Assembly (NCBI RefSeq): GCF_000011385.1
Contig: NC_005125.1
Location: 2,170,001-2,234,000 of the forward strand
DNA: 64,000 nucleotides
Source: Gloeobacter violaceus PCC 7421
GTDB taxonomy: Bacteria > Cyanobacteriota > Cyanobacteriia > Gloeobacterales > Gloeobacteraceae
Direction: 5' to 3'
Each line of letters starts with the position of its first letter. The stretch's first letter is position 1. Positions 10,365 to 22,241 of the stretch are shown here, piece by piece. The notes beneath the pieces were generated by a model. It ran no database searches. It worked only from the letters and a program-made list of their open reading frames with translations, and was not told the origin of the DNA. The position numbers were made by a program, and so were the translations under genes.

Positions 10365-13300
10365 ATGCTCAACCAACTGATTTTCTGGTCGATCGTCCAG
10401 CGCTGGCTGGTGGTGCTCGCCTCGGTGCTGCTGCTGGTGGTGGGTACCGCCGTCGTCGTGCGCATGCCCCTCGACGTCTTTCCCAACTTCGCTCCGCCCC
10501 AGGTGGTCCTCCAGACCGAGGCGTCGGGACTGGCGCCGGAGGAAGTCGAGTCGCTGGTCACCATTCCCCTCGAGAGTGCCCTGGGCGGCATGCCGGGGCT
10601 CACCGACATCCGCTCCAGCTCCGCCGTGGGCCTCTCGGTGATCACGGTCGTCTTCGACTGGGGCACCGATGTTTTTCGCGCCCGCCAACTGGTCACCGAG
10701 CGCGTCTCGCAGGTGGCGGGCCGTTTGCCCGAGGGGGTGAGCCCGCCGTTGCTCTCGCCCATCAGCTCGCCCGTGGGCGATGTGATCAAGTACGCCCTCA
10801 CCATCGACCCCGACGCAAAAGTCCAGAAGCGCACCTCGCTATTGGATCTGGCCACCACCGCCAACTGGCAGATCCGCAACCGGCTTCTGGCGGTGCCGGG
10901 GGTCACCCGCGTGCTGGTCATCGGCGGCGGCGAATTGCAGTACCAGGTGCTGGTGGAGCCTGCGAAGCTGCGCCAGTACGGCGTCACGTTAAATCAAGTG
11001 AGCGAGGCGGTGGCCAAGGCCAACGTCAACGCGGCGGGGGGCTTCTTGCAGACGCCGGACGAAGAATTTCTGATCCGCGGCGTTGGTCGCATCACTTCGC
11101 TGGCCGAATTGGGCAAGTCGGTGGTGGTGGTGCGCGGGGGGATCCCCGTGCGGCTGTCGGAAGTGGCACGCATCCAGACCGGCGCCGGGGTCAAGCGCGG
11201 CGACGGCTCGCTGGGTGGCCGGGAGGCGGTGATCGTGACGGTCACCCGCCAACCGTTTGCCGATACCCCCACCGTGACGCGCGGCGTGGAAGCGGCGATG
11301 GCGGACCTGGTCTCGACCTTGCCCAAGGACGTCAAGGTGACCGTCACCTTCCGGCAGGAGGACTTTATCGAGAAGTCCGTGGGCAACGTCGTCGAGGCGC
11401 TCAGGGACGGGGCGATTATCGTCGCGGTGATTCTGGTGCTCTTTTTGGGCAACTGGCGCACGATGCTCATCACGCTCACCGCCCTGCCGCTCTCGGTGGT
11501 GCTCGGGTTGCTGGCGCTCAACTGGTTTGGCGTCGGGCTCAACACGATGACGCTCGGAGGGCTCGCGATTGCCCTGGGTGAAGTAATTGACGATGCGATC
11601 ATCGATGCGGAGAACGTTTACCGTCGACTGCGCGAGAACCGGCTGCGGCCCGACCCGGCGCCGGCTTTGCAGGTGGTCTTCGCAGGTTCGGTGCAAATCC
11701 GTACCTCCGTGGTTTTCGCGACCTTGATTTTGGGGGTCGTCATTGCTCCCATCTTTGCGCTGAGCGGCGTCGAGGGCCGCATCTTCACCCCGCTGGGGCT
11801 TGCCTATGTCTTTGCTGTCGCCGCTTCGCTCGCGGTGGCGCTCACCCTCACCCCGGCGCTTTGCTATGTGCTTCTGGCAGGCCGGGATCTGCCCGAGGAG
11901 GAGACAACCACGGTGCGGGTACTCAAAAAACTCTACCGGCCGGTGTTGCGCTTTGCCCTGGCCCGCCCGATTCCTGTGTTGGCCGCTTCGGCGGCGGCCT
12001 TTGCCGCCTCGCTCGTGCTGATTCCGTTTTTGGGGCGGACCTTTTTGCCGGAATTTCAGGAGCGCAGCTTGATCATCGCCGTCTCGCAGCTGCCGGGTGC
12101 GTCGCTTGCTTCTACTCAGCAGTTGGGGATCGCCCTCGAAAAAGCCCTGATGCGCCACCCGGAGATCGAGACGGCCCAGTTTCGCGCCGGCCGCGCCCTG
12201 GGGGACGATGACGCGGGGGGGGTGAATTTCGGCGAACTGGACGTGCAGGTGGCAGCCGGTGCCCAGGACCGCGAGGCGGTGCTCGAGATGATCCGCGCCG
12301 AATTCGCCCGTTTTCCCGGTGTGGCCGTGAATGTGGGCGGATTTATCTCCCACCGCGTCGATGAAGTGCTCTCCGGGACGCGGGCGGCTATCGCCATCAA
12401 AGTCTTCGGTCCCGACCTCGCCCAATTGCGCCGCCTCGCCGGGGAGGTCGAAGCGGTGATGAAGACCGTCCCGGGCACCGTCGATCTGCAAATCGAGCCG
12501 CAGGTGCCGGTGAACCAGTACACGGTGCGCTTCAACCGCGACGCGGCGGCCCGCTATGGTCTGGCGGTGGGGGATCTGGCCGAGGCGGTGGAGACGGCCT
12601 TCAACGGTCGGGCGGTCTCTCAGGTGCTCAAAGACCAACGGCTGTTCAACCTGGTGATCTGGCTCGCCCCGGAGGCGCGCAACCGGCCCGAGGCGCTCTC
12701 CGATTTGCTCGTCGACACCCCCACCGGCCAGAAAATTCCGCTCTCGCAGGTAGCGGCGGTCGTGCTCGACAAAGGCCCCAACACGATCAACCGCCAGAAT
12801 GTTTCGCGCCGCATCGTGGTGGCCGCCAACGCCGGCGGGCGCGACATCGGCTCATTGATCGCCGAGGCGCGCGAAAAAATCTCCCAACAGGTGCCCTTGC
12901 CCGACGGCTATTACATCGACTACGGCGGCCAGTTCGAAGCCCAGGAGCGCGCCACCCGCGAACTGATTCTCTTCGGGGTGTTGGCGCTTTTGGGGGTGGC
13001 GGTGCTGTTGTACCTGGCGGTGCGCTCGGTGCGCTCGACGCTGCTGATTCTGGCCAATTTGCCTTTAGCTTTTATCGGCGGCATCGTGGCCGTTTGGTTC
13101 GGAGGCGGGGTGCTCTCGGTCGCATCGCTGGTGGGCTTTATCACCCTGTTTGGCATCGCCAACCGCAACGGCATCATTCTGGTCACCACCTACCAGCAGC
13201 GGATGGCGGCCGGGGAAAGTTTCGATGAGGCCATCGAAGAAGGATCGGTCGAGCGACTCTCGCCGGTACTGATGACCGCCCTGACCGCCGCCCTGGCCAT

Positions 13301-13511
13301 GGTGCCCTTGATGGTGGGTTCCGGCGCCGGTAAGGAGATTCTCCAGCCGTTGGCGGTGGTGGTTTTTGGCGGACTCTTCACCTCCACTGCGCTCACGCTG
13401 GTGGTGATCCCGGCTTTGTTCGAACGCTTCGGCGAGCGGACGGCCCCGGTGATCAGCGAGCAGGAAAAAGTGGCGATGGACCTGCAGAGCGTGCTTGCCG
13501 ACAGGCAGTAA
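10365..13511 (+). CDS. heavy-metal-type RND efflux transporter (CzcA/CusA family)
   Basis: Proton-driven inner-membrane pump of 1048 residues, the normal length for the family. The N terminus (LVVGTAVVVRMPLDVFPNFAPPQV) is that of the heavy-metal efflux subgroup. Twelve hydrophobic segments are arranged as TM1, a large periplasmic loop, TM2-6, and the repeat. Transmembrane helix 4 carries acidic residues in the motif ALGEVIDDAIIDAEN (about residues 404-418), the site used for proton relay. This differs from the CzcA and CusA forms I know, so I do not name the metal. Gene order outer membrane-MFP-RND is standard; two exported His-bearing proteins follow. Confidence 0.93.
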   Translation: MLNQLIFWSIVQRWLVVLASVLLLVVGTAVVVRMPLDVFPNFAPPQVVLQTEASGLAPEEVESLVTIPLESALGGMPGLTDIRSSSAVGLSVITVVFDWGTDVFRARQLVTERVSQVAGRLPEGVSPPLLSPISSPVGDVIKYALTIDPDAKVQKRTSLLDLATTANWQIRNRLLAVPGVTRVLVIGGGELQYQVLVEPAKLRQYGVTLNQVSEAVAKANVNAAGGFLQTPDEEFLIRGVGRITSLAELGKSVVVVRGGIPVRLSEVARIQTGAGVKRGDGSLGGREAVIVTVTRQPFADTPTVTRGVEAAMADLVSTLPKDVKVTVTFRQEDFIEKSVGNVVEALRDGAIIVAVILVLFLGNWRTMLITLTALPLSVVLGLLALNWFGVGLNTMTLGGLAIALGEVIDDAIIDAENVYRRLRENRLRPDPAPALQVVFAGSVQIRTSVVFATLILGVVIAPIFALSGVEGRIFTPLGLAYVFAVAASLAVALTLTPALCYVLLAGRDLPEEETTTVRVLKKLYRPVLRFALARPIPVLAASAAAFAASLVLIPFLGRTFLPEFQERSLIIAVSQLPGASLASTQQLGIALEKALMRHPEIETAQFRAGRALGDDDAGGVNFGELDVQVAAGAQDREAVLEMIRAEFARFPGVAVNVGGFISHRVDEVLSGTRAAIAIKVFGPDLAQLRRLAGEVEAVMKTVPGTVDLQIEPQVPVNQYTVRFNRDAAARYGLAVGDLAEAVETAFNGRAVSQVLKDQRLFNLVIWLAPEARNRPEALSDLLVDTPTGQKIPLSQVAAVVLDKGPNTINRQNVSRRIVVAANAGGRDIGSLIAEAREKISQQVPLPDGYYIDYGGQFEAQERATRELILFGVLALLGVAVLLYLAVRSVRSTLLILANLPLAFIGGIVAVWFGGGVLSVASLVGFITLFGIANRNGIILVTTYQQRMAAGESFDEAIEEGSVERLSPVLMTALTAALAMVPLMVGSGAGKEILQPLAVVVFGGLFTSTALTLVVIPALFERFGERTAPVISEQEKVAMDLQSVLADRQ

Positions 13512-13531
13512 ATCCTGTTCAGGAGATAATC

Positions 13532-13912
13532 ATGTCCACAAAACGCATGCTGAGCGCCCTTGCCCTCCTGGCGATCCTGACTGGCGCGCTCCCGGCCATT
13601 GGTGCGCCGAGGCACGGCGGCCAGGCGGTCGAAATCCAGGGCTACCAGTTCGAACTGGTGGTCGAGCCGGAATCGGGGGGCGCGCACCTGGATCTGTTCA
13701 TCAACGATCCCAAAAGCAAAACGGTATCCGACGCCGCTGTCCAACTACAAGTCAGCGCCCCGGGCGGCCAGAAACTTTCGCTGCCGATGAAGTACGGCGA
13801 GGGCCACTACGAGGCGGTGCTGCCGGCCGCAGCCAAGGGGGTGTACCGGGTGGTGGCCCTCGCCACCGTCGGCGGCAAAAAGCTCAACTCGCGTTTTTCC
13901 TTTAAGCTCTAA
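13532..13912 (+). CDS. exported hypothetical protein of the efflux operon
   Basis: A 126-residue protein with a clear signal peptide (MLSALALLAILTGALPAIGA) and a mature part that reads as a single beta-sandwich-like domain (VVEPESGGAHLDLFIND to GKKLNSRFSFKL). It begins 20 bases after the pump gene behind the site AGGAGA, so it belongs to the same operon. I do not recognise a named family. The position and the small Ig-like fold suggest a periplasmic accessory of the metal pump. Confidence 0.75.
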   Translation: MSTKRMLSALALLAILTGALPAIGAPRHGGQAVEIQGYQFELVVEPESGGAHLDLFINDPKSKTVSDAAVQLQVSAPGGQKLSLPMKYGEGHYEAVLPAAAKGVYRVVALATVGGKKLNSRFSFKL

Positions 13913-13956
13913 CTGGCTGGTTTATGTTCACCCTGTAAAGACACGGAGATACACCA

Positions 13957-14853
13957 ATGCATCGATGGTTTGTTGTCTGCTCTGTCGCGACGTTACTGGC
14001 CCTCGCCGCTCCCGCACAGACACACGAGGAAGCCCACAGCCCTCAAAAAACCGGTACCCCGATGCATTCCGGCGGTCACCACCGCGCGCAGAAATCGGCT
14101 GCGCAACTGGGCATCACCCCCACCGTCAATCTGCGCGCCGGCCAACCCAAAACCTTCACCCTGCAGGTGCGCAACGCCGACGGCAAGCCTATCGGCGACT
14201 TTGCCACGGTCCACGAAAAACTCCTGCACCTCATCGTCGTAGATAGCGACCTCGGCTACTACAACCACGCCCACCCTACTTACCTTGGCAACGGCCGCTT
14301 TGAGATCGCCCTTGATTTTCCGCGCGGTGGCAAGTATGTGCTTTTTGCCGATTTTGTGCCCAAGGGGGGCGCCCCGCAGGTGCAGACTCAAGAGTTGCGC
14401 GTGAGCGGAGCCACCCCGCCCCCGACAACGACCCTCAAGCCCGACACCAGCCTCACTAAGACCCAAGAAGACCTCACCGCCACCCTGTTGTGGGATGCCG
14501 GAGCCGTGCGCCCCGGAAGGGAGGTGACCGTCGCCTTTGCCCTCAAAGACAGCGAGGGCAAGCCGGCCGCAGACTTGCAGCCCTATCTGGGGGCGATGGG
14601 CCACCTGGTCGTCCTCAAGCAGTCCAAAACTTTGCAGGCCGCCAGCTACCTGCACGCCCACCCGGAGTCCGCGCCAGCAGAGCAGTCGGAGGCCGCCATG
14701 GCGGCTGCTCACGCCGGTCACAACGCCCCCAAATCAGCTCCCGGCGTGGTCAGTTTCGCCACGACCTTTCCTGAACCCGGCCTTTACAAGCTCTGGGGCG
14801 AATTTAAGCGCAACGGCCAAGTCCATACCTTCGACTTTGTCGTGGCAATTTAG
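13957..14853 (+). CDS. exported histidine-rich protein with YtkA/FixH-like beta domains
   Basis: A 298-residue protein with a signal peptide (FVVCSVATLLALAAPAQT). Histidine clusters stand out: HEEAHSPQ and HSGGHHRAQK near the N terminus, YNHAHPTY near residue 108, LHAHPESAP near 232 and AHAGHN near 249. Two similar beta-rich repeats (about 55-150 and 170-298) each contain a HLVV/HLIVV strand and a GLYKLWGEF/GKYVLFADF motif. It is the last gene of the efflux operon and probably binds a transition metal in the periplasm. It overlaps the convergent pstS gene by four bases at the stop codons. Confidence 0.8.
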   Translation: MHRWFVVCSVATLLALAAPAQTHEEAHSPQKTGTPMHSGGHHRAQKSAAQLGITPTVNLRAGQPKTFTLQVRNADGKPIGDFATVHEKLLHLIVVDSDLGYYNHAHPTYLGNGRFEIALDFPRGGKYVLFADFVPKGGAPQVQTQELRVSGATPPPTTTLKPDTSLTKTQEDLTATLLWDAGAVRPGREVTVAFALKDSEGKPAADLQPYLGAMGHLVVLKQSKTLQAASYLHAHPESAPAEQSEAAMAAAHAGHNAPKSAPGVVSFATTFPEPGLYKLWGEFKRNGQVHTFDFVVAI

Positions 14854-15950
14854 CTGCCAATTTGCTCGACAGCCGCCAGGACGCGCTCGGTAACCGGTTT
14901 GGGCAGTTCAATGTATCCGAGGGATTCGCTCGACTTTTGCCCTTCGGTGAGGCACCACTTGAGAACTTCCTTCAAAGCCGTCGCCTTTTCGGGGGTGTCC
15001 ATTGTCTTGGGTGCGAGGATCCAGGTGTAAGTGACCAGTGGATACGAATCCTTACCGGGCGGATCGGCGATAAAAGCGCGCAGGTTGGGCGGCAACTCTA
15101 CCGAGGCGAGGGCCGCGGCGGAATTTTCCAGCGTCGGCAGGACATAGTTGCCCTCTTTGTTTTCAAGCGAAGCGTAGGGCAACTTGTTGTTGGTGGCGTA
15201 GCCGTATTCCACGTAGCCGATCGAGCCGGGGTTCTGCTGGACCTGAGCCGTCACACCGTCGTTGCCCTTGCCGCCTACACCCGTGGGCCATTTGACGGCG
15301 ATGCCTTCGCCGACTTTCGTTTTCCACTCGGGGCTGACGGCACTCAGGTGGCGAGTGAACACGCCGGTCGTGCCGCTGCCGTCGGCGCGGCGCACCACCG
15401 TGGCGGCCAGATCCGGCAGTTTGACACCCGGGTTGAGTGCGGCAATCTTCGGGTCGTTCCAGTTTTTAATCTTGCCCAGGAACATATCGCTGTAGACGGC
15501 GCGGGAGAGTTTAAGATTCTCCGGCGCACCCGGTACGTTGTAGATGAGCACGACGCTACCGGCGGTCATCGGCAATAGCACCACGCCTCGATCCGCCGGC
15601 ACCGCGGCAATCTCCTCGTCGCTCATTGCCACGTCGCTCGCGGCAAAATCGACGGTTTTGCTTTGAAACTGCTTGATGCCGGCGCCGCTGCCCACGCCCT
15701 GGTAGCTGACTTTGACGTTCGGGTTGGCCTGGCCATAATCGTAGAACCACCGCTGATAGAGCGGTGCCGGGAAGGTGGCCCCGGCGCCGGAGAGGGTCAC
15801 CGCACCGGCCGGTGCGCCGCCGGGGCTAGGGGCGGTGGCACTGGGACCCTCCGGTGGGGAAGACTGGCACTGGGACAACAAAAGGTTTGCTCCCAGCATG
15901 GCGGCCAAAACAGGAAAAATCCGCCGGATTAAAGTTGCTCTTGTGACCAT
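14850..15950 (-). CDS. pstS: phosphate ABC transporter substrate-binding lipoprotein PstS
   Basis: High-affinity periplasmic phosphate binder of 366 residues. A lipoprotein signal ends at LLLSQC. The family core is plain: LSGAGATFPAPLYQRWFYDY, YQGVGSGAGIKQF (phosphate-binding Ser/Gly loop), DFAASDVAMSDEEIA, and RADGSGTTGVFTRHL. The frame is open to 15962, but the ATG at 15950 sits directly before the signal sequence. No pstC, pstA or pstB gene is adjacent on either side, so this copy is an orphan here. It converges on the efflux operon with a four-base overlap. Confidence 0.93.
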   Translation of the reverse strand: MVTRATLIRRIFPVLAAMLGANLLLSQCQSSPPEGPSATAPSPGGAPAGAVTLSGAGATFPAPLYQRWFYDYGQANPNVKVSYQGVGSGAGIKQFQSKTVDFAASDVAMSDEEIAAVPADRGVVLLPMTAGSVVLIYNVPGAPENLKLSRAVYSDMFLGKIKNWNDPKIAALNPGVKLPDLAATVVRRADGSGTTGVFTRHLSAVSPEWKTKVGEGIAVKWPTGVGGKGNDGVTAQVQQNPGSIGYVEYGYATNNKLPYASLENKEGNYVLPTLENSAAALASVELPPNLRAFIADPPGKDSYPLVTYTWILAPKTMDTPEKATALKEVLKWCLTEGQKSSESLGYIELPKPVTERVLAAVEQIGS

Positions 15951-16045
15951 GGTTTGACCCACAAATTATCTCGGATCCTACGCGCAGGGGAGCTCAAGCA
16001 CGTGTATCGCGCAATGCCTTACCATATCGGGCCGGGGGCTTCGGG

Positions 16046-16309
16046 TCACAGCAACATATCGACGGCGGCCAGAAAATTCTCCAGTTCTGCTTCATAGCGC
16101 TCGCTGCCGGCCGCTTCGACTAAGCAATGTTCGGTGTGGTCCTTGAGGACCAGTTGGGCCGCCGCGTTGACCGCCGAGCGGAGGTAGACCATGCGGACGA
16201 GCACATCCGGGCAAGCGCCGCCCGCCTCGACCGTGGTGTAAACGTCGCGGACGCGCCCTTCGATGCTCGCCAGGTGCTTCAACACGTCCTGGGTGTACTT
16301 GTGCGGCAT
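16046..16309 (-). CDS. CsoR/RcnR-family metal-sensing repressor
   Basis: An 87-residue all-helical DNA-binding repressor that releases DNA on binding metal. The ligand positions Cys33 (GGACPDVL), His58 and Cys62 (KDHTEHCLVEA) have exactly the C-x24-H-x3-C spacing of copper-sensing CsoR and are shared with the nickel sensor InrS; formaldehyde sensors lack the last Cys. The ATG at 16309 matches the family N terminus (MPHKYTQDVLKHL); the longer open frame upstream is not needed. It is divergent from a 54-residue gene and lies about 1.2 kb from the RND metal efflux operon, a possible target. Confidence 0.9.
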   Translation of the reverse strand: MPHKYTQDVLKHLASIEGRVRDVYTTVEAGGACPDVLVRMVYLRSAVNAAAQLVLKDHTEHCLVEAAGSERYEAELENFLAAVDMLL

Positions 16310-16441
16310 GAGCAATCCTCGCAATGGACCGGATGTGGAGCCCGGCGGCACCCCAATGGTAGGCCCACGTCGCCCTCTCTTTCTCGACAGACTCAAACTC
16401 GCACGTCGATGATAAAGTCGGCAAAGCGGGCAGGCGCAAAG

Positions 16442-16606
16442 ATGAAAAGCTTCGAGAAAATTGCCGATGAGCAGGGCTGGTCCAGCGAAATCCAGGTGCA
16501 GATTCTCTTGAAGTACATCGAGAAGCAGGTCAGGCCGGAGGATTTCGAAGATTTTCTGCTCGATCAAGTCGATAGAGAAGACGCGAGCGATCACATCGGC
16601 GGATAA
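16442..16606 (+). CDS. small hypothetical protein
   Basis: A 54-residue acidic protein (MKSFEKIADEQGWSSEIQVQ start) that is mostly helical, with several Glu/Asp and a motif EDFEDFLLDQ near residue 35. It has no signal or membrane segment. The wording resembles short conserved proteins I have seen in diverse bacteria, but I cannot attach a function. It is divergent from the CsoR-type gene, with a 132-base shared upstream region, and is followed by the tRNA gene on the other strand. Confidence 0.6.
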   Translation: MKSFEKIADEQGWSSEIQVQILLKYIEKQVRPEDFEDFLLDQVDREDASDHIGG

Positions 16607-16673
16607 ATCAAGAGCCGCACGCGAAGCCAAGTCCGACGGCACTCCTGCAACTTTCGATGTGCTTGAACTTCAG

Positions 16674-16904: not shown

Positions 16905-17666
16905 ATGAAGGCAGCGAGCAGCAGTCTATTTGGCGGGTTTGTGCTGGCGACGGCGGTTTCAGGAGCAATTTTGCTTGCCCTGACGCTCTGGAACACGGTG
17001 CAGTTGCAGATTCTGGCCCATCGGCCCGCTCCGAGCCTGGTGCAGCTCAGCGATGGGCAGTCGGTGCAGGTGCGGGCGGCGGGGCACTATGCGCGGGAGC
17101 CGGAGGTGATCCGCCGCTTCGTGGCTGAGGCGTTGGGGATGCTCTTTACCTGGCGGCGCTATATTCCGGCGGCCGGGCCGGGCCAGGCCGACAGCGAAGA
17201 CCCGGGGATCGTGCTGAGTAATCGCGCGTGGGTGCCTACCAGCGTCTTTCAGGCGGGGTTTTGTCTGAGCGAGGATCTGCGCACCGAACTGCTGCGCCAG
17301 CTTGCTGAATTGAGCGCCCGTACCCTGAGCGGCAAGAGCGGCCAGGTGCTCTTCAGCGCCACCTTTATCGGCCGGCCGCAGCCGGTGGCGGGTCAGGAGC
17401 ATACCTGGTCCCTCAGCGTTGTCGGTTCGCAGGTGGTCTTCAGCCCGGAGCGGCCGGAGGGGGTGCCGATTCCCTTCAACAAACAGGTGACCGTGCGGGC
17501 GGTGGAGCCACCCGTCGTGCCGGGCGAGCTGCCCCAAACGCCACTAGAAAAAGCCGTCGCGCGGGTGCGCGGCAGCGGGCTTGAGATCGTCTCCCTGCGA
17601 TCACTCGCCGCCCCAGAAATCTCCCCAGAAATCTCCCCAGAAATCTCCAAGGAGCAATCGCGATGA
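16905..17666 (+). CDS. membrane-anchored protein, VirB8/TraE-like topology (T4SS-like operon gene 1)
   Basis: A 253-residue protein with a short cytosolic tail, one N-terminal membrane span (LATAVSGAILLALTLWNTVQ, about 13-32) and a periplasmic domain containing VIRRFVAEALGMLFTWRRYI and RTELLRQLAELSARTL. This plan and its place before a VirB10-like gene suggest a VirB8/TraE-type inner-membrane scaffold, but the match is by topology only. The ATG at 16905 follows AAGGACGG. Near the C terminus three perfect 12-base tandem repeats (17611-17646) encode PEIS three times. The stop overlaps the next start by four bases (ATGA). Confidence 0.65.
   Translation: MKAASSSLFGGFVLATAVSGAILLALTLWNTVQLQILAHRPAPSLVQLSDGQSVQVRAAGHYAREPEVIRRFVAEALGMLFTWRRYIPAAGPGQADSEDPGIVLSNRAWVPTSVFQAGFCLSEDLRTELLRQLAELSARTLSGKSGQVLFSATFIGRPQPVAGQEHTWSLSVVGSQVVFSPERPEGVPIPFNKQVTVRAVEPPVVPGELPQTPLEKAVARVRGSGLEIVSLRSLAAPEISPEISPEISKEQSR
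17611..17646 (+). repeat. three tandem 12-base repeats inside a coding sequence
   Basis: The unit CCCCAGAAATCT is repeated three times without a mismatch, in frame, giving PEIS-PEIS-PEIS near the C terminus of the VirB8-like protein. Copy-number change by replication slippage would alter protein length by four residues without shifting the frame. Confidence 0.95.
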
Positions 17667-19027
17667 CCCAGCCGGAATTTGATCAATTCGACCAACAACC
17701 CGACCGCCGCGAACGGCTGCTGCGCTGGCTGACGCCGGGGCGCAAGGTGGCCATCGTGGGGGGGCTCACGCTACTGCCGGCCCTGGGCATCGGCGCTGCC
17801 CTCAACGGGCTGTTTTACCCGAGCGCTCCTCGTCCGAAGGCCGAGGCGGCGGCCAAACCCGCCGCCGCTGTGCCACGGGCGACCCAACCGGCTCCCACCG
17901 ACGAGGTGGATCGGTTGAAGGCGGAGGTGGCCCTGGCCGACCAGCGCCAGATGCTCGAACAGTTGCGCTCCCAGCAAAAAGACAAGCCGTCTCCACCGCC
18001 CGCTACGAAGCTGCGAGGGGCGAAGTCGCTGCCCCCGGCGCGTCTGCTGAGCCCCCCCGCCCTTGCCCAGTCCGCCACCTGGCGCCCGGATACGAACGGG
18101 GTGCGGGTGCTGCCGCCCCCTGCCGCCCTGGGAGCGCTCGCCGCCTCCGGCACGGGTCCGGCCCAGCTCGCCTTTTTGGGTTCCAGCCGCGAACAAGAAG
18201 GAGCCCGCGGCGGCACTCCACCCCCGACGGCCAGTGCCCCGGATGTCGCGCTTCCTCCTGTGGCGCGCCGGACGGCCATCCCGCGGCCCGCCCCCGCGAT
18301 CTCAGCCGCCACCAGCCTCGACCCGAGTCTGGAGCCGCTCGCCGCCCAGGGCTCACCCGTCCACCACCTCTCTGCCACCCACCGCCTGCCGGCTGGGGCG
18401 GCGATCCCCGCCGCCAGCCTGGCGGCGGGGGTGCTCGAACGGCCCATCCTCTGGGAGCAGGAGCAAAAGCACAGTCCCGCCGCTTCTGAGGCCGATCGCC
18501 ACGTGGTGGTGCTCACCGAGCCGCTGGCAGGACCGGAGGGCGACAGCTTGCTTCCCGCTGGCACGCGCGTGCTTGCCGCCCTGCGGCGCGTGTCGCCGGG
18601 GGGGCTGGTGACCCTCGAAGCGGTGGCGTTGCGGGCCGACCGCCGGGAGATCCCGTTGCAATCGGTCGCGGTGCGGGCGGTTGGCGGGTTGCCCCTGGTG
18701 GCGGTTCGTCAGGACAAGGGAGGCGAAATCGGCGGTCTTGACACTGGTCAGTCGCTACTGAAGGGAGCCGAGGAGGGACTTGCCATCCTCAACCGCGCAA
18801 GCAGCACCATCGAAGCGAGCGGCTTCGGCGGGGCTACCACCAGCGCAAATTACGGGCAGGCCAATGCCCTGGCGGCCTTCGGCAGCGGCCTGTTTGGCGA
18901 ACTGGGCAGGCTGATTCGCCAGCGCAACCAGCAGGCGGTCCGCCAGGTGATCGAGCGTCCGGACCTGTGGCTCATCCCCGGCGGTACGGCGGTCGAACTG
19001 CTCTTCGGCCGGGAGGTGCCGCTTTGA
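17663..19027 (+). CDS. VirB10/TraB-like envelope-spanning T4SS protein (operon gene 2)
   Basis: A 454-residue protein. It has a cytosolic head, a single span (KVAIVGGLTLLPALGIGAALNGLF, about 29-52), a long Pro/Ala-rich region with a short coiled coil (DEVDRLKAEVALADQRQMLEQLRSQQ), and a C-terminal beta-domain. That domain contains LLPAGTRVLAALRRVSPGGLVTLEAVAL and ends in LWLIPGGTAVELLFGREV. Both the proline-rich periplasmic stalk and the GTRV...PGG...GTAVEL core are features of VirB10/TraB proteins, which bridge the two membranes. It overlaps the upstream gene by four bases and the downstream gene by four (TTGA). Confidence 0.78.
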   Translation: MTQPEFDQFDQQPDRRERLLRWLTPGRKVAIVGGLTLLPALGIGAALNGLFYPSAPRPKAEAAAKPAAAVPRATQPAPTDEVDRLKAEVALADQRQMLEQLRSQQKDKPSPPPATKLRGAKSLPPARLLSPPALAQSATWRPDTNGVRVLPPPAALGALAASGTGPAQLAFLGSSREQEGARGGTPPPTASAPDVALPPVARRTAIPRPAPAISAATSLDPSLEPLAAQGSPVHHLSATHRLPAGAAIPAASLAAGVLERPILWEQEQKHSPAASEADRHVVVLTEPLAGPEGDSLLPAGTRVLAALRRVSPGGLVTLEAVALRADRREIPLQSVAVRAVGGLPLVAVRQDKGGEIGGLDTGQSLLKGAEEGLAILNRASSTIEASGFGGATTSANYGQANALAAFGSGLFGELGRLIRQRNQQAVRQVIERPDLWLIPGGTAVELLFGREVPL

Positions 19028-19497
19028 GAATTGCGCTCGCGCTGCCGCTGGCCCTGTGGATAGCCTGCGTCCCTGCCGCTTCGTCCTCGGTGATGGCGCG
19101 CATCGACCGGGCGACGGCCACCGGGGCAGGCAAACCCGCCTTTGTGATCGACCTGTTTAGGGGAGTCGGTTTCGACGTCAGCCTGCTGGCCACAGGAGAA
19201 ACGATCGCCGACTGGTGGGTGGAGGACCCGTCGCGGGTGGTGGCGCGCACCGATCGCAGCGGCCGGATCTTGAGCCTGAGGCTGGTCGATCTGCCCGCCG
19301 TGGTGCCGAGCAACCGCAACTGGACGACGCTCAAAGTGCTCGCCGGCGATCCCCAGGGCCGGTTGAGCCTGCTGCACTTTGTGGTGCGCTTTCAGGAGCG
19401 CCCCCCGCCGCGCGCCGAGCACGTCCGCTACCACGGGCTGGAGGTTCTACCCGCAGCCCCGGCCCCCGCTTCGACCGGTCCCACACCCTTGAGGTAA
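19024..19497 (+). CDS. exported VirB9/TraK-like protein (operon gene 3)
   Basis: A 157-residue protein starting at a TTG that overlaps the previous stop codon (TTGA). A signal peptide is clear (ALALPLALWIACVPAASSS). The mature domain (VIDLFRGVGFDVSLLATGE, then IADWWVEDPSRVV, and TLKVLAGDPQGRLSLLHFVV) has the pattern of the N-terminal domain of VirB9/TraK-type secretin-like proteins: a strand ending in a trigger-hook phrase, then a W..DPS motif. The C-terminal VirB9 domain appears to be missing or reduced. Assignment rests on pattern and operon position. Confidence 0.65.
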   Translation: MRIALALPLALWIACVPAASSSVMARIDRATATGAGKPAFVIDLFRGVGFDVSLLATGETIADWWVEDPSRVVARTDRSGRILSLRLVDLPAVVPSNRNWTTLKVLAGDPQGRLSLLHFVVRFQERPPPRAEHVRYHGLEVLPAAPAPASTGPTPLR

Positions 19498-19502
19498 CCG
19501 CC

Positions 19503-20621
19503 ATGCGCCCGCTTGCCCTGACCCTCGCCCTACTGTTGAGTGGGTCCGCTCCCGCCCTCGCCATTCCGGTACGGCAGGTGGCGGGCGTGCCGATGCCCGA
19601 CTTCGAGCAAATCACGTTCAGGGTGCTGCCGGCCCTGGCTGCGGCGGGTGAGATTGCCATCACCCACCCGACCGTCCTAAAACACCTGGGTTACGACCCA
19701 AGCCGGTTGTGGCAGGTGGGGGCGGCGGCCGACACCGTTCTGATGCTCGGGGATGTGGCGGGGGCTTTCGGGCTGGAGCGCTTCTCACTGGAGCAAATCG
19801 CCCAATGGGGTTTGACCGGGCGCTTGCGCCTCGAAAGGCTCACTCTTGCCCGCCTCAAGATGCTCGCCGCCAACACCGTGGGGGAGATTGTCAAAGCCCT
19901 GGCCTACGAACAATTGCCGCCGGAGTCGGTGCCGCTCCTGCGGGATCTGGCCAACTACTACTTCAACGGCGCCATCCCCTACGAGCGGCTGGGGGAGCTG
20001 ATCGCCCAGGTGCCGGGTTTCGCCGGATTGCCCCTCGGCACGACGGACCTGGCGGGCTACGCGCTTTCGGGACTGCCCGGCATCGAGCGGGTGGCCATAG
20101 GCAAGCTCGCGGGCTGGGCAAGCCAGTACATTCGCGACATTCCGGGGCTCAGCGACGTGCCCTTTTCGAAATTTCTGTCCTTCACGGGCAACTTTACCGG
20201 CATCGCCGGCCTGGTGGACGTTCCCCTCTCCAAAATCGAGCACAACCGCACCCGAACGATCACCGGTTCCGATGTCGAAGGTTTTGCGGTGCCCTGCCCG
20301 CGCGATTGCCTGCACGTCGAATTGGGCGACCCGTTGCGCGGCAGCCAGTGGGTGGGCAGCACCCAGCAGGTGCGCGGCGGCCACGGTGTACTCGCGGCGG
20401 TCAACGGCGGCAAAGAACCCACCGGTCGCCACCCCTTTGGCCGCTGGGGCAAAATCGTGCTCACCGGTGTCGACGAAAAAGCCGGCAAAGCCGACTTCGG
20501 CCTGTACCTGCGGGTTTGCATCAAGACGACCTTGTTTGACTTTGGATGTACCCCGTATTTTCTGGGTCCCATCCCCTGGATTCCGAGCCAGGAAAAAGCG
20601 CTGACCTTCGTGGGACCTTAG
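19503..20621 (+). CDS. exported hypothetical protein (T4SS-like operon gene 4)
   Basis: A 372-residue protein with a signal peptide (LALTLALLLSGSAPALAIPV). The middle consists of short helical Leu-rich repeats (IAQWGLTGRLRLERLTLARLK; PGFAGLPLGTTDLAGYALSG). The C-terminal third is beta-rich with at least four cysteines (PCPRDC, VCIK, GCTPYF), which could form disulfides in the periplasm. I do not recognise the family. The ATG at 19503 lies five bases after the preceding stop, and the coupling ATPase starts three bases after its own stop, so it is integral to the operon. Confidence 0.75.
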   Translation: MRPLALTLALLLSGSAPALAIPVRQVAGVPMPDFEQITFRVLPALAAAGEIAITHPTVLKHLGYDPSRLWQVGAAADTVLMLGDVAGAFGLERFSLEQIAQWGLTGRLRLERLTLARLKMLAANTVGEIVKALAYEQLPPESVPLLRDLANYYFNGAIPYERLGELIAQVPGFAGLPLGTTDLAGYALSGLPGIERVAIGKLAGWASQYIRDIPGLSDVPFSKFLSFTGNFTGIAGLVDVPLSKIEHNRTRTITGSDVEGFAVPCPRDCLHVELGDPLRGSQWVGSTQQVRGGHGVLAAVNGGKEPTGRHPFGRWGKIVLTGVDEKAGKADFGLYLRVCIKTTLFDFGCTPYFLGPIPWIPSQEKALTFVGP

Positions 20622-20624
20622 AGC

Positions 20625-22241
20625 ATGGAAAACGACTGGACAAATTACGCCCTGCTTGCCGGATTGGGAGCGGCGGCTCTGTGGGTCAACCGTTCGCGCC
20701 GGGGGGCGCTGCCGCGCTCCGCCTCCGGCCGCTGGGCCGGTGCCAAAGAGCGCGAACACGCCCGGCGCACCGCCCGGCGTCAGCAGGAGCAGCGGGCCAA
20801 GAACAAAGTCGCCCTGCAGATCAACCCCGGTGGGCGGGGCGAGCGAGTGATCCCCGTACCGCATGCCGAACGGGGTGTGCTGGTGATGGGCCAACCGGGT
20901 TCGGGCAAAACCTACTCGGCCATCGACCCGCTCATTCGCTCCGCACTGCGCCAGGGCTTTCCGCTGGTGCTGTACGACTTTAAGTACCCCACCCAGACCC
21001 GGCGGTTGTTTGCCTACGCCCGGCATCTGGGCTACACCGTCCAGGTCTTTGCCCCGGGATTGCCCCAATCCGCCGTGTTCAATCCTTTGGATCTTCTCGT
21101 CTCCGCCGAGGACAGCGAGACGGCCCGCCAGCTGGCCGAGGTACTCAACCGCAACTTCAAGCTTGCACAGCAAAAAGGGGGGGAGGACGCTTTTTTTGGT
21201 CCGGCGGGCGATCAGCTGGCCGAGGCGGTGCTGCTCACGGCCAAAGCGAGCCCCTACCCGGATCTATTGATGGTGCAATCGCTATTGAGTCTCGACCAGT
21301 TGCCCCAGCGCCTGCAGACAGCCGAGCACCTTTCCAGTTGGGTCAAAGCCTCCTACGGCCAGTTCTTGAGTGCGGCCAGTTCCGAAAAAACGGCTGCGTC
21401 GATCGTGGCTACTGCAAGCGCTCTATTTACACGCTTTCTCAAGCCCCAGGTGGCTCGCAGCTTCGCAGGGCCGAGCGCCATCGACTTTGATCTCTCGGGC
21501 AAGAAGCTGTTGGTGCTGGGGGTGGATCGCACCCGCCGCGACGTGGTGCTGCCTTTGGTGGCTACCCTGCTGCACATGCTCATTCAGTTCAACACCCACG
21601 AGCGGCGCACCGAACCGCTCGTGCTTGCCCTCGACGAGTTACCGACTTTGTTTTTGCCGGCTCTTGTCAACTGGCTCAACGAAAACCGCGAGGACGGGCT
21701 GGTGAGCGTGCTTGGTCTGCAAAACCTGGCCCAATTGGAGCGCACCTACGGCAAAGAAACCGCCCAGGCGATCTTCGGCGCCTGCGCCACCAAGTTTTTG
21801 TTCAATCCCGGCGAGAAAGATTCCGCCCAGTACATCTCCGACATGCTGGGCCAGGAATCGATACTCCAGCGCTCGATCAGCCGCAACACCGGCAAGGGCG
21901 GCCCCTCGCGCACCCACTCCGAAAGCGAGAAGACTCGGCCGCTTCTGGAGGCGAGCGGCCTGCTCAAACTCGGCCAGGGCCACTGCATTTTACTCAACCC
22001 CGAGTACGGCAGCGGCAAAGAGTCCGGGGTGCCGATGCGCCTCGCCGTCCGACTTGATCCGGGTGAAATGGCGATAGCCGAACTGGCCGAAAAGCTCTGG
22101 TCCACTCAGCAGCCGGAACTGCTCACCAATTCGCCGCCCGTCAGTGCCCAGTCCCTGGCAGAGCGTCAGGCGTCGGCGGAACAATTTTTGCCCCTCGCCC
22201 CAGCTGACGCCTCCACAGTACGATCCGTGCCGCTGTTTTAG
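20625..22241 (+). CDS. VirD4/TraD-type coupling ATPase (T4SS-like operon gene 5)
   Basis: A 538-residue FtsK/HerA-superfamily ATPase that in conjugation links substrate to the secretion channel. It has one short N-terminal hydrophobic segment (YALLAGLGAAALWV) and then a very basic stretch. Walker A is GQPGSGKT (residues 89-96), followed by LVLYDFKYPTQTR. The region VFNPLDLLVSAEDSETARQLA is typical of T4CPs, Walker B is LVLALDELPTL, and a sensor strand reads VSVLGLQNLAQLE. It is shorter at the membrane end than TraD/VirD4, which usually have two spans. It is the last gene of the operon and overlaps the convergent Rpn gene by four bases. Confidence 0.87.
   Translation: MENDWTNYALLAGLGAAALWVNRSRRGALPRSASGRWAGAKEREHARRTARRQQEQRAKNKVALQINPGGRGERVIPVPHAERGVLVMGQPGSGKTYSAIDPLIRSALRQGFPLVLYDFKYPTQTRRLFAYARHLGYTVQVFAPGLPQSAVFNPLDLLVSAEDSETARQLAEVLNRNFKLAQQKGGEDAFFGPAGDQLAEAVLLTAKASPYPDLLMVQSLLSLDQLPQRLQTAEHLSSWVKASYGQFLSAASSEKTAASIVATASALFTRFLKPQVARSFAGPSAIDFDLSGKKLLVLGVDRTRRDVVLPLVATLLHMLIQFNTHERRTEPLVLALDELPTLFLPALVNWLNENREDGLVSVLGLQNLAQLERTYGKETAQAIFGACATKFLFNPGEKDSAQYISDMLGQESILQRSISRNTGKGGPSRTHSESEKTRPLLEASGLLKLGQGHCILLNPEYGSGKESGVPMRLAVRLDPGEMAIAELAEKLWSTQQPELLTNSPPVSAQSLAERQASAEQFLPLAPADASTVRSVPLF

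Follow-up and report, generated by a model that had tools for sequence, protein, structure and literature searches.

The stretch of DNA analyzed here, referred to in the following as the window, covers 64,000 nucleotides of the genome of Gloeobacter violaceus PCC 7421 (G000; positions 2,170,001-2,234,000 of its single 4,659,019-bp contig, C1) and contains a five-gene operon resembling the envelope core and coupling ATPase of a type IV secretion system (T4SS). The genes, g1 to g5, all lie on the forward strand, at window positions 16905-17666 (g1, 253 amino acids), 17663-19027 (g2, 454 amino acids), 19024-19497 (g3, 157 amino acids, with a TTG start), 19503-20621 (g4, 372 amino acids) and 20625-22241 (g5, 538 amino acids). 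The g1/g2 and g2/g3 junctions overlap by 4 bases each, while g3 and g4 are separated by 5 bases and g4 and g5 by 3, in agreement with a first-pass annotation of the window that had described five same-strand genes with 4-base overlaps or 3–5 base gaps.

The best recognized of the five proteins is g5, a VirD4/TrwB-type coupling ATPase that matched the Pfam families TrwB_AAD_bind (8.7e-28) and TraG-D_C (2.8e-26) and, by profile comparison with the PDB, TrwB. Its Walker A (GQPGSGKT) and Walker B (LALDELP) motifs are both present, as first read. The g2 protein matched the Pfam TrbI/VirB10 family at 1.5e-6, under the curated cut-off, and g1, g3 and g4 matched no family in Pfam or NCBIfam scans. PDB sequence searches with the g1, g2 and g3 profiles returned nothing useful. 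Using hhalign, cyanobacterial family profiles were compared with reference sets from R388, R751 and F, giving probabilities of 99.4% for g5 with VirD4, 63.0% for g2 with VirB10, 30.6% for g1 with VirB8 and 22.3% for g3 with VirB9; the cyanobacterial VirB4 family scored 97.1% against the reference VirB4. For g1, g2 and g3, all remaining references scored below 1%, and because the reference sets hold just 1–3 sequences each, this specificity is more telling than the absolute probabilities.

An AlphaFold2 model of g1 (mean predicted local distance difference test score, pLDDT, of 81) consisted of a single long N-terminal helix followed by an alpha/beta domain. Its top PDB matches all belonged to the VirB8 family or to structures containing VirB8, namely CagV (3.6e-4), an R388 T4SS subcomplex, TraM, DotI and TrwG. 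The predicted fold and the profile comparison together support the assignment of g1 to the VirB8 family, an inner-membrane/periplasmic subunit. The profile match also supports a VirB9-like identity for the exported protein g3, although this is the least secure of the VirB8, VirB9, VirB10 and VirD4 assignments. When aligned with its plasmid homologues, the chromosomal VirB9 was found to be missing a C-terminal helical part of ~70–100 amino acids. The helical motif at the C-terminus of full-length cyanobacterial VirB9 recurs in other Gloeobacter chromosomal proteins, at C1:1673466-1673678 and 3375360-3375560.

The fourth gene had been described as an exported protein with four cysteines and no recognized family. 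It does have a signal-peptide-like start and exactly four cysteines, which alignment showed to be conserved in the family, and the databases scanned hold no family for it; nevertheless, it is not an orphan, but belongs to a T4SS family conserved in cyanobacteria, in which peptidoglycan hydrolases are often present. Of 259 GTDB loci with g4 relatives, the best 80 were all cyanobacterial, and homologues of g2, g3 and g5 accompany g4 in the same orientation and within 3 kb in 60 of the 65 cyanobacterial loci with full flanks, showing that the grouping is not due to chance. About 50 of 69 g4 homologues have a tail of 160–390 residues, which is absent from the Gloeobacter copies. Among 41 homologues scanned against Pfam, nine had an M23 peptidase domain and two a GH19 domain, and many more share what we read as a lysozyme-like tail. 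In one of the 41, probably L077:2899-5250 (metagenome-assembled genome, MAG, UBA11371), judging from its unusual tail, an Ntox50-like domain takes the place of the terminal cell-wall hydrolase. No Pfam domain, and hence no peptidoglycan hydrolase domain, was found in the window g4. Its model (mean pLDDT 73) contained a confident short-repeat solenoid at residues ~90–220 and no PDB match reached an E-value below 1. Since the homologues have hydrolase tails that the Gloeobacter copies lack, g4 can probably best be regarded as the scaffold part of a cell-wall-opening protein specific to mating-pair formation class C (MPF_C) systems.

The first-pass annotation had correctly noted that no relaxase, VirB4 or pilin adjoins the operon, and had proposed a reduced machine with the coupling ATPase as its sole source of power. 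That proposal is not supported: the remaining apparatus was found at two other chromosomal loci when G000 and its relatives were searched with profiles built from contiguous cyanobacterial operons. The first locus (C1:658740-663576) contains a VirB2-like pilin, a VirB3-like gene and VirB4, all downstream of a VirB1-like muramidase gene; the second (C1:131296-133190) contains VirB5 and VirB6. The operon is thus VirB4-less as a locus, but the genome is not: a single full-length VirB4 match (C1:658749-661220, minus strand, E 6e-253) lies 1.5 Mb away, with intact Walker A (GTTRSGKS) and Walker B (LFILDEAP) motifs. Its top NCBIfam family was VirB4_CagE, at 9e-8. VirB4 had been overlooked by the family scan because the Pfam model PF03135 misses the divergent cyanobacterial class, which the cyanobacterial profile finds. 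VirB6 (C1:132135-133109, plus strand, E 6.9e-30) and a single full-length VirB4 were found in the same five genomes, G000, G001, G002, G003 (Gloeobacter morelensis, on the chromosome) and G004. Immediately 5' of VirB6, and overlapping it by 4 bases, is the VirB5-like gene (E about 1e-11); the VirB3-like gene (E about 1e-12) stands in the same relation to VirB4. The G000 and G002 copies of the VirB2-like pilin, encoded 5' of VirB3, share 85% identity; identity to plasmid-type pilins is about 41%. A protein with PG_binding_1 and Muramidase domains, encoded 5' of the VirB2-like gene in G000–G003, is the presumptive VirB1 equivalent, and may supply in Gloeobacter the enzyme half of the g4 function. 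Also upstream of this locus, G000, G002 and G004 share a conserved protein of ~400 amino acids (L045:14021-15442, L047:14753-16015 and L049:7094-8284), which could be a regulator or a plasmid-type protein; two of the copies were scanned and matched no Pfam family.

In contiguous cyanobacterial operons, the order is VirB2-like, VirB3-like, VirB4, VirB5-like, VirB6-like, VirB8, VirB10, VirB9, g4, a small exported protein, VirD4 and a giant strawberry-notch helicase. Plasmid pGMOR1 of G. morelensis has a contiguous B2-B3-B4-B5-B6-B8-B10-B9-D4 order without g4, and loci L053 and L032 have the same type of order with g4 included. The three G000 pieces, B2-B3-B4, B5-B6 and B8-B10-B9-g4-D4, each retain the internal order of the plasmid operon, so that the operon order is cut at two points. 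By a profile of cyanobacterial plasmid-type VirB4, used in place of the CONJscan profiles and with pCC7120alpha not among the sequences compared, the G000 system belongs to MPF_C: it has a VirB4 of that class type, VirB8, VirB9, VirB10 and VirD4, and VirB2, VirB3, VirB5 and VirB6, spread over three loci instead of a single gene cluster. The distance between VirB4 and VirD4, 5–8 kb in contiguous systems, is 1.53 Mb in G000, 1.74 Mb in G002 and 0.21 Mb on the G003 chromosome. A similar break was seen in another cyanobacterium (G014:C41, loci L050 and L033), where a VirB2-B3-B4 piece lies 194 kb from a VirB5-to-VirD4 piece; this may be the same break as in Gloeobacter, arisen independently. Three other loci (L051, L052 and L054, in G211, G251 and G334) have a contiguous B3-B4-B5-B6-B8-B8-B10-B9 cluster with two VirB8 genes and neither g4 nor VirD4 adjoining, and G089, G107, G190, G282, G346 and G382 have a VirB4 of this class and no family VirD4 at 1e-30.

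The relaxase-less character of the operon extended to the genome for the four Pfam relaxase types searched, leaving G000 without a detected relaxase of a conjugative element, whether integrative (ICE) or plasmid: PF03432 (Relaxase), PF08751 (TrwC) and PF01076 (Mob_Pre) had no match, and MobA_MobL (PF03389) had solely a 34-position sub-threshold match; other relaxase classes were not searched. That match, at 630 kb, was rejected as a relaxase, being confined to a 276-residue frame that resembles the shadow of another gene. G000 gave no match either to the strawberry-notch helicase characteristic of the plasmid systems, and no recognized DNA-processing gene adjoins any of the three loci. Because no relaxase was detected, the system cannot by itself mobilize DNA in the known way. 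Elsewhere in the family, relaxases were found on two extrachromosomal replicons of G. morelensis, and MobA/MobL or Mob_Pre relaxases in G002 and the MAG G001. In G. morelensis only, a small basic ORF of the mobilization-accessory type, with a truncated relaxase-domain ORF (155 amino acids) after it, lies on the chromosome about 5 kb downstream of the VirB5-VirB6 locus (L058:14276-15243).

All three fragments were found in the five family genomes G000–G004, split in the same way in each, with VirB9 missing from G004. The proteins have diverged to 43–78% identity across these genomes, and the reading frames are intact. Pairwise ratios of nonsynonymous to synonymous substitution (dN/dS) within the family were 0.00–0.36 for all ten genes, which shows purifying selection and lies in the range of the neighboring pstS (0.12–0.14) and two other neighbors (0.20–0.24). 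A stop was flagged in g1 of G001 and G003, but alignment showed an intact frame in G003, and the flag is best read as an ungapped alignment overrunning a shorter repeat tail. In each of the trees of VirB4, VirD4 and VirB10, the chromosomal Gloeobacteraceae copies form a clade of their own on a long branch, separate from the G. morelensis plasmid copy, which fits common vertical inheritance.

Taken together, these results suggest that the window operon is the envelope-core and coupling-protein module of an MPF_C T4SS whose other parts are at two chromosomal loci, and that the system is domesticated and relaxase-less, a reading that we consider probable. What had been annotated as a stripped-down machine is one third of a nearly complete one that has been kept. 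The three pieces would once have formed a single operon on a conjugative element that the family's ancestor acquired; the element would then have lost its relaxase and DNA-processing module and been broken up. As for its present role, export of protein has a chance slightly short of even. In such a system, VirD4 would recruit substrates and VirB4 would drive assembly of the pilus and channel; VirB3, VirB6 and VirB8 would make up the inner-membrane part and VirB9 and VirB10 the trans-envelope core, with g4 as a periplasmic or surface scaffold and the cell wall opened by the separate VirB1-like muramidase. More tentatively, this deepest-branching cyanobacterial family may have domesticated an entire conjugation apparatus, now dispersed and owned by the host, for delivering protein to neighboring cells; effector use is not known to have been demonstrated for an MPF_C-class T4SS.

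Several observations weigh against this interpretation. The homology of VirB2, VirB3, VirB5 and VirB6 to the R388 and F proteins was not significant by hhalign, and these names rest on homology to, and order in, the cyanobacterial plasmid operons. No VirB7 was identified in G000, although no search was aimed at it. In G004 (MAG ES-bin-313), VirB9 was found neither in the operon nor elsewhere in the genome, and MAG ES-bin-141 has g1–g4 with no VirD4 within 3 kb after g4, showing that individual components may go missing or change place. In G005, a fragmented genome taken to be ES-bin-141, a family-type VirD4 is on another contig, and VirB4 and VirB6 were not found by profile search.

Among the alternatives, the chromosomal T4SS might serve as a helper in trans for mobilizable plasmids passing through the family that bear a relaxase and lack a T4SS of their own. 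The intact VirD4 and VirB4 speak for this, as do the relaxases in G. morelensis, G002 and G001; however, G000 has neither a plasmid contig nor a detected relaxase, and a vertically kept, non-mobile helper is of little obvious benefit to the host, making this unlikely. It is more improbable still that the genes are a decaying, functionless relic of a conjugative element. The three broken loci, the short VirB9, the lack of a hydrolase on g4 and the loss of VirB9 from G004 all look like decay, but the genes that are present have stayed intact despite their protein divergence, with dN/dS values similar to that of pstS and the same split in five genomes.

In other bacteria, T4SSs have been put to use in taking up or releasing DNA. 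With this precedent, which includes the H. pylori uptake mentioned in PMC3158045, a role in competence or DNA release might be considered, but we regard it as very unlikely, given that G. violaceus already has the genes for natural competence, namely all com genes and a full set of pil genes (PMC7690421), and that no DNA-processing gene was recognized beside the three loci. A reduced machine driven by VirD4 alone, as first proposed from the absence of VirB4 close to the operon, is extremely unlikely in view of the full-length VirB4 with intact Walker motifs elsewhere on the chromosome, which five genomes have retained along with VirB3, VirB5 and VirB6.

A domesticated, dispersed T4SS can be compared with three known kinds of system. 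The rvh T4SS of Rickettsiales has scattered genes, lacks a relaxase and is vertically kept; the Gloeobacter system is alike in all three respects, but differs in MPF class and belongs to a free-living phototroph. MPF_C plasmids have been described, among them pCC7120alpha (virB4 alr7206, virD4 alr7213 and the MOBV relaxase alr7199; PMC8600333). Those of this type compared here, pGMOR1 and L032/L053, have the homologous B2-B3-B4-B5-B6-B8-B10-B9-(g4)-D4 genes in an order matching that within the fragments. Unlike these plasmids, the Gloeobacter system is chromosomal, at three loci 0.5–1.5 Mb apart; in G000 it has no detected relaxase or giant strawberry-notch helicase; its VirB9 and g4 lack C-terminal domains; and no small gene separates g4 from VirD4. 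Guglielmini et al. (2011; PMC3158045) argued that most T4SSs lacking a relaxase (MOBless) serve to secrete protein, and pointed to their occurrence in cyanobacteria. The Gloeobacter system resembles them in being chromosomal, without a relaxase and thought to move protein, whereas theirs are co-localized clusters, with T4SS genes joined when ≤60 ORFs apart, a rule that would not join the Gloeobacter loci, with VirB4 and VirD4 1.5 Mb apart.

MPF_C plasmids and relaxase-less cyanobacterial T4SSs are already known, but the dispersed arrangement appears to be unreported: a literature search, which left most subscription journals outside its reach, found no report of it or of a Gloeobacter T4SS. 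T4SS finders based on co-localization would leave the pieces unjoined, and might record Gloeobacter as having no complete T4SS. Should the dispersed machine be functional, it would be a host-owned cell-to-cell delivery system in a free-living, deep-branching phototroph, and a clean case for how a conjugation operon survives fragmentation once selection for co-transfer stops.

Integration of the operon at the adjacent tRNA-Asn was considered but looks unlikely: the operon lies on the side opposite to that faced by the 3' end of the tRNA, and the window holds no repeat of this 3' end and no flanking 13-mer repeat. Upstream of the operon, window positions 10365-16642 encode a CusA-like resistance-nodulation-division (RND) efflux pump, a PstS-like protein and a metal-sensitive repressor (PF02583), and look like a metal-resistance block.

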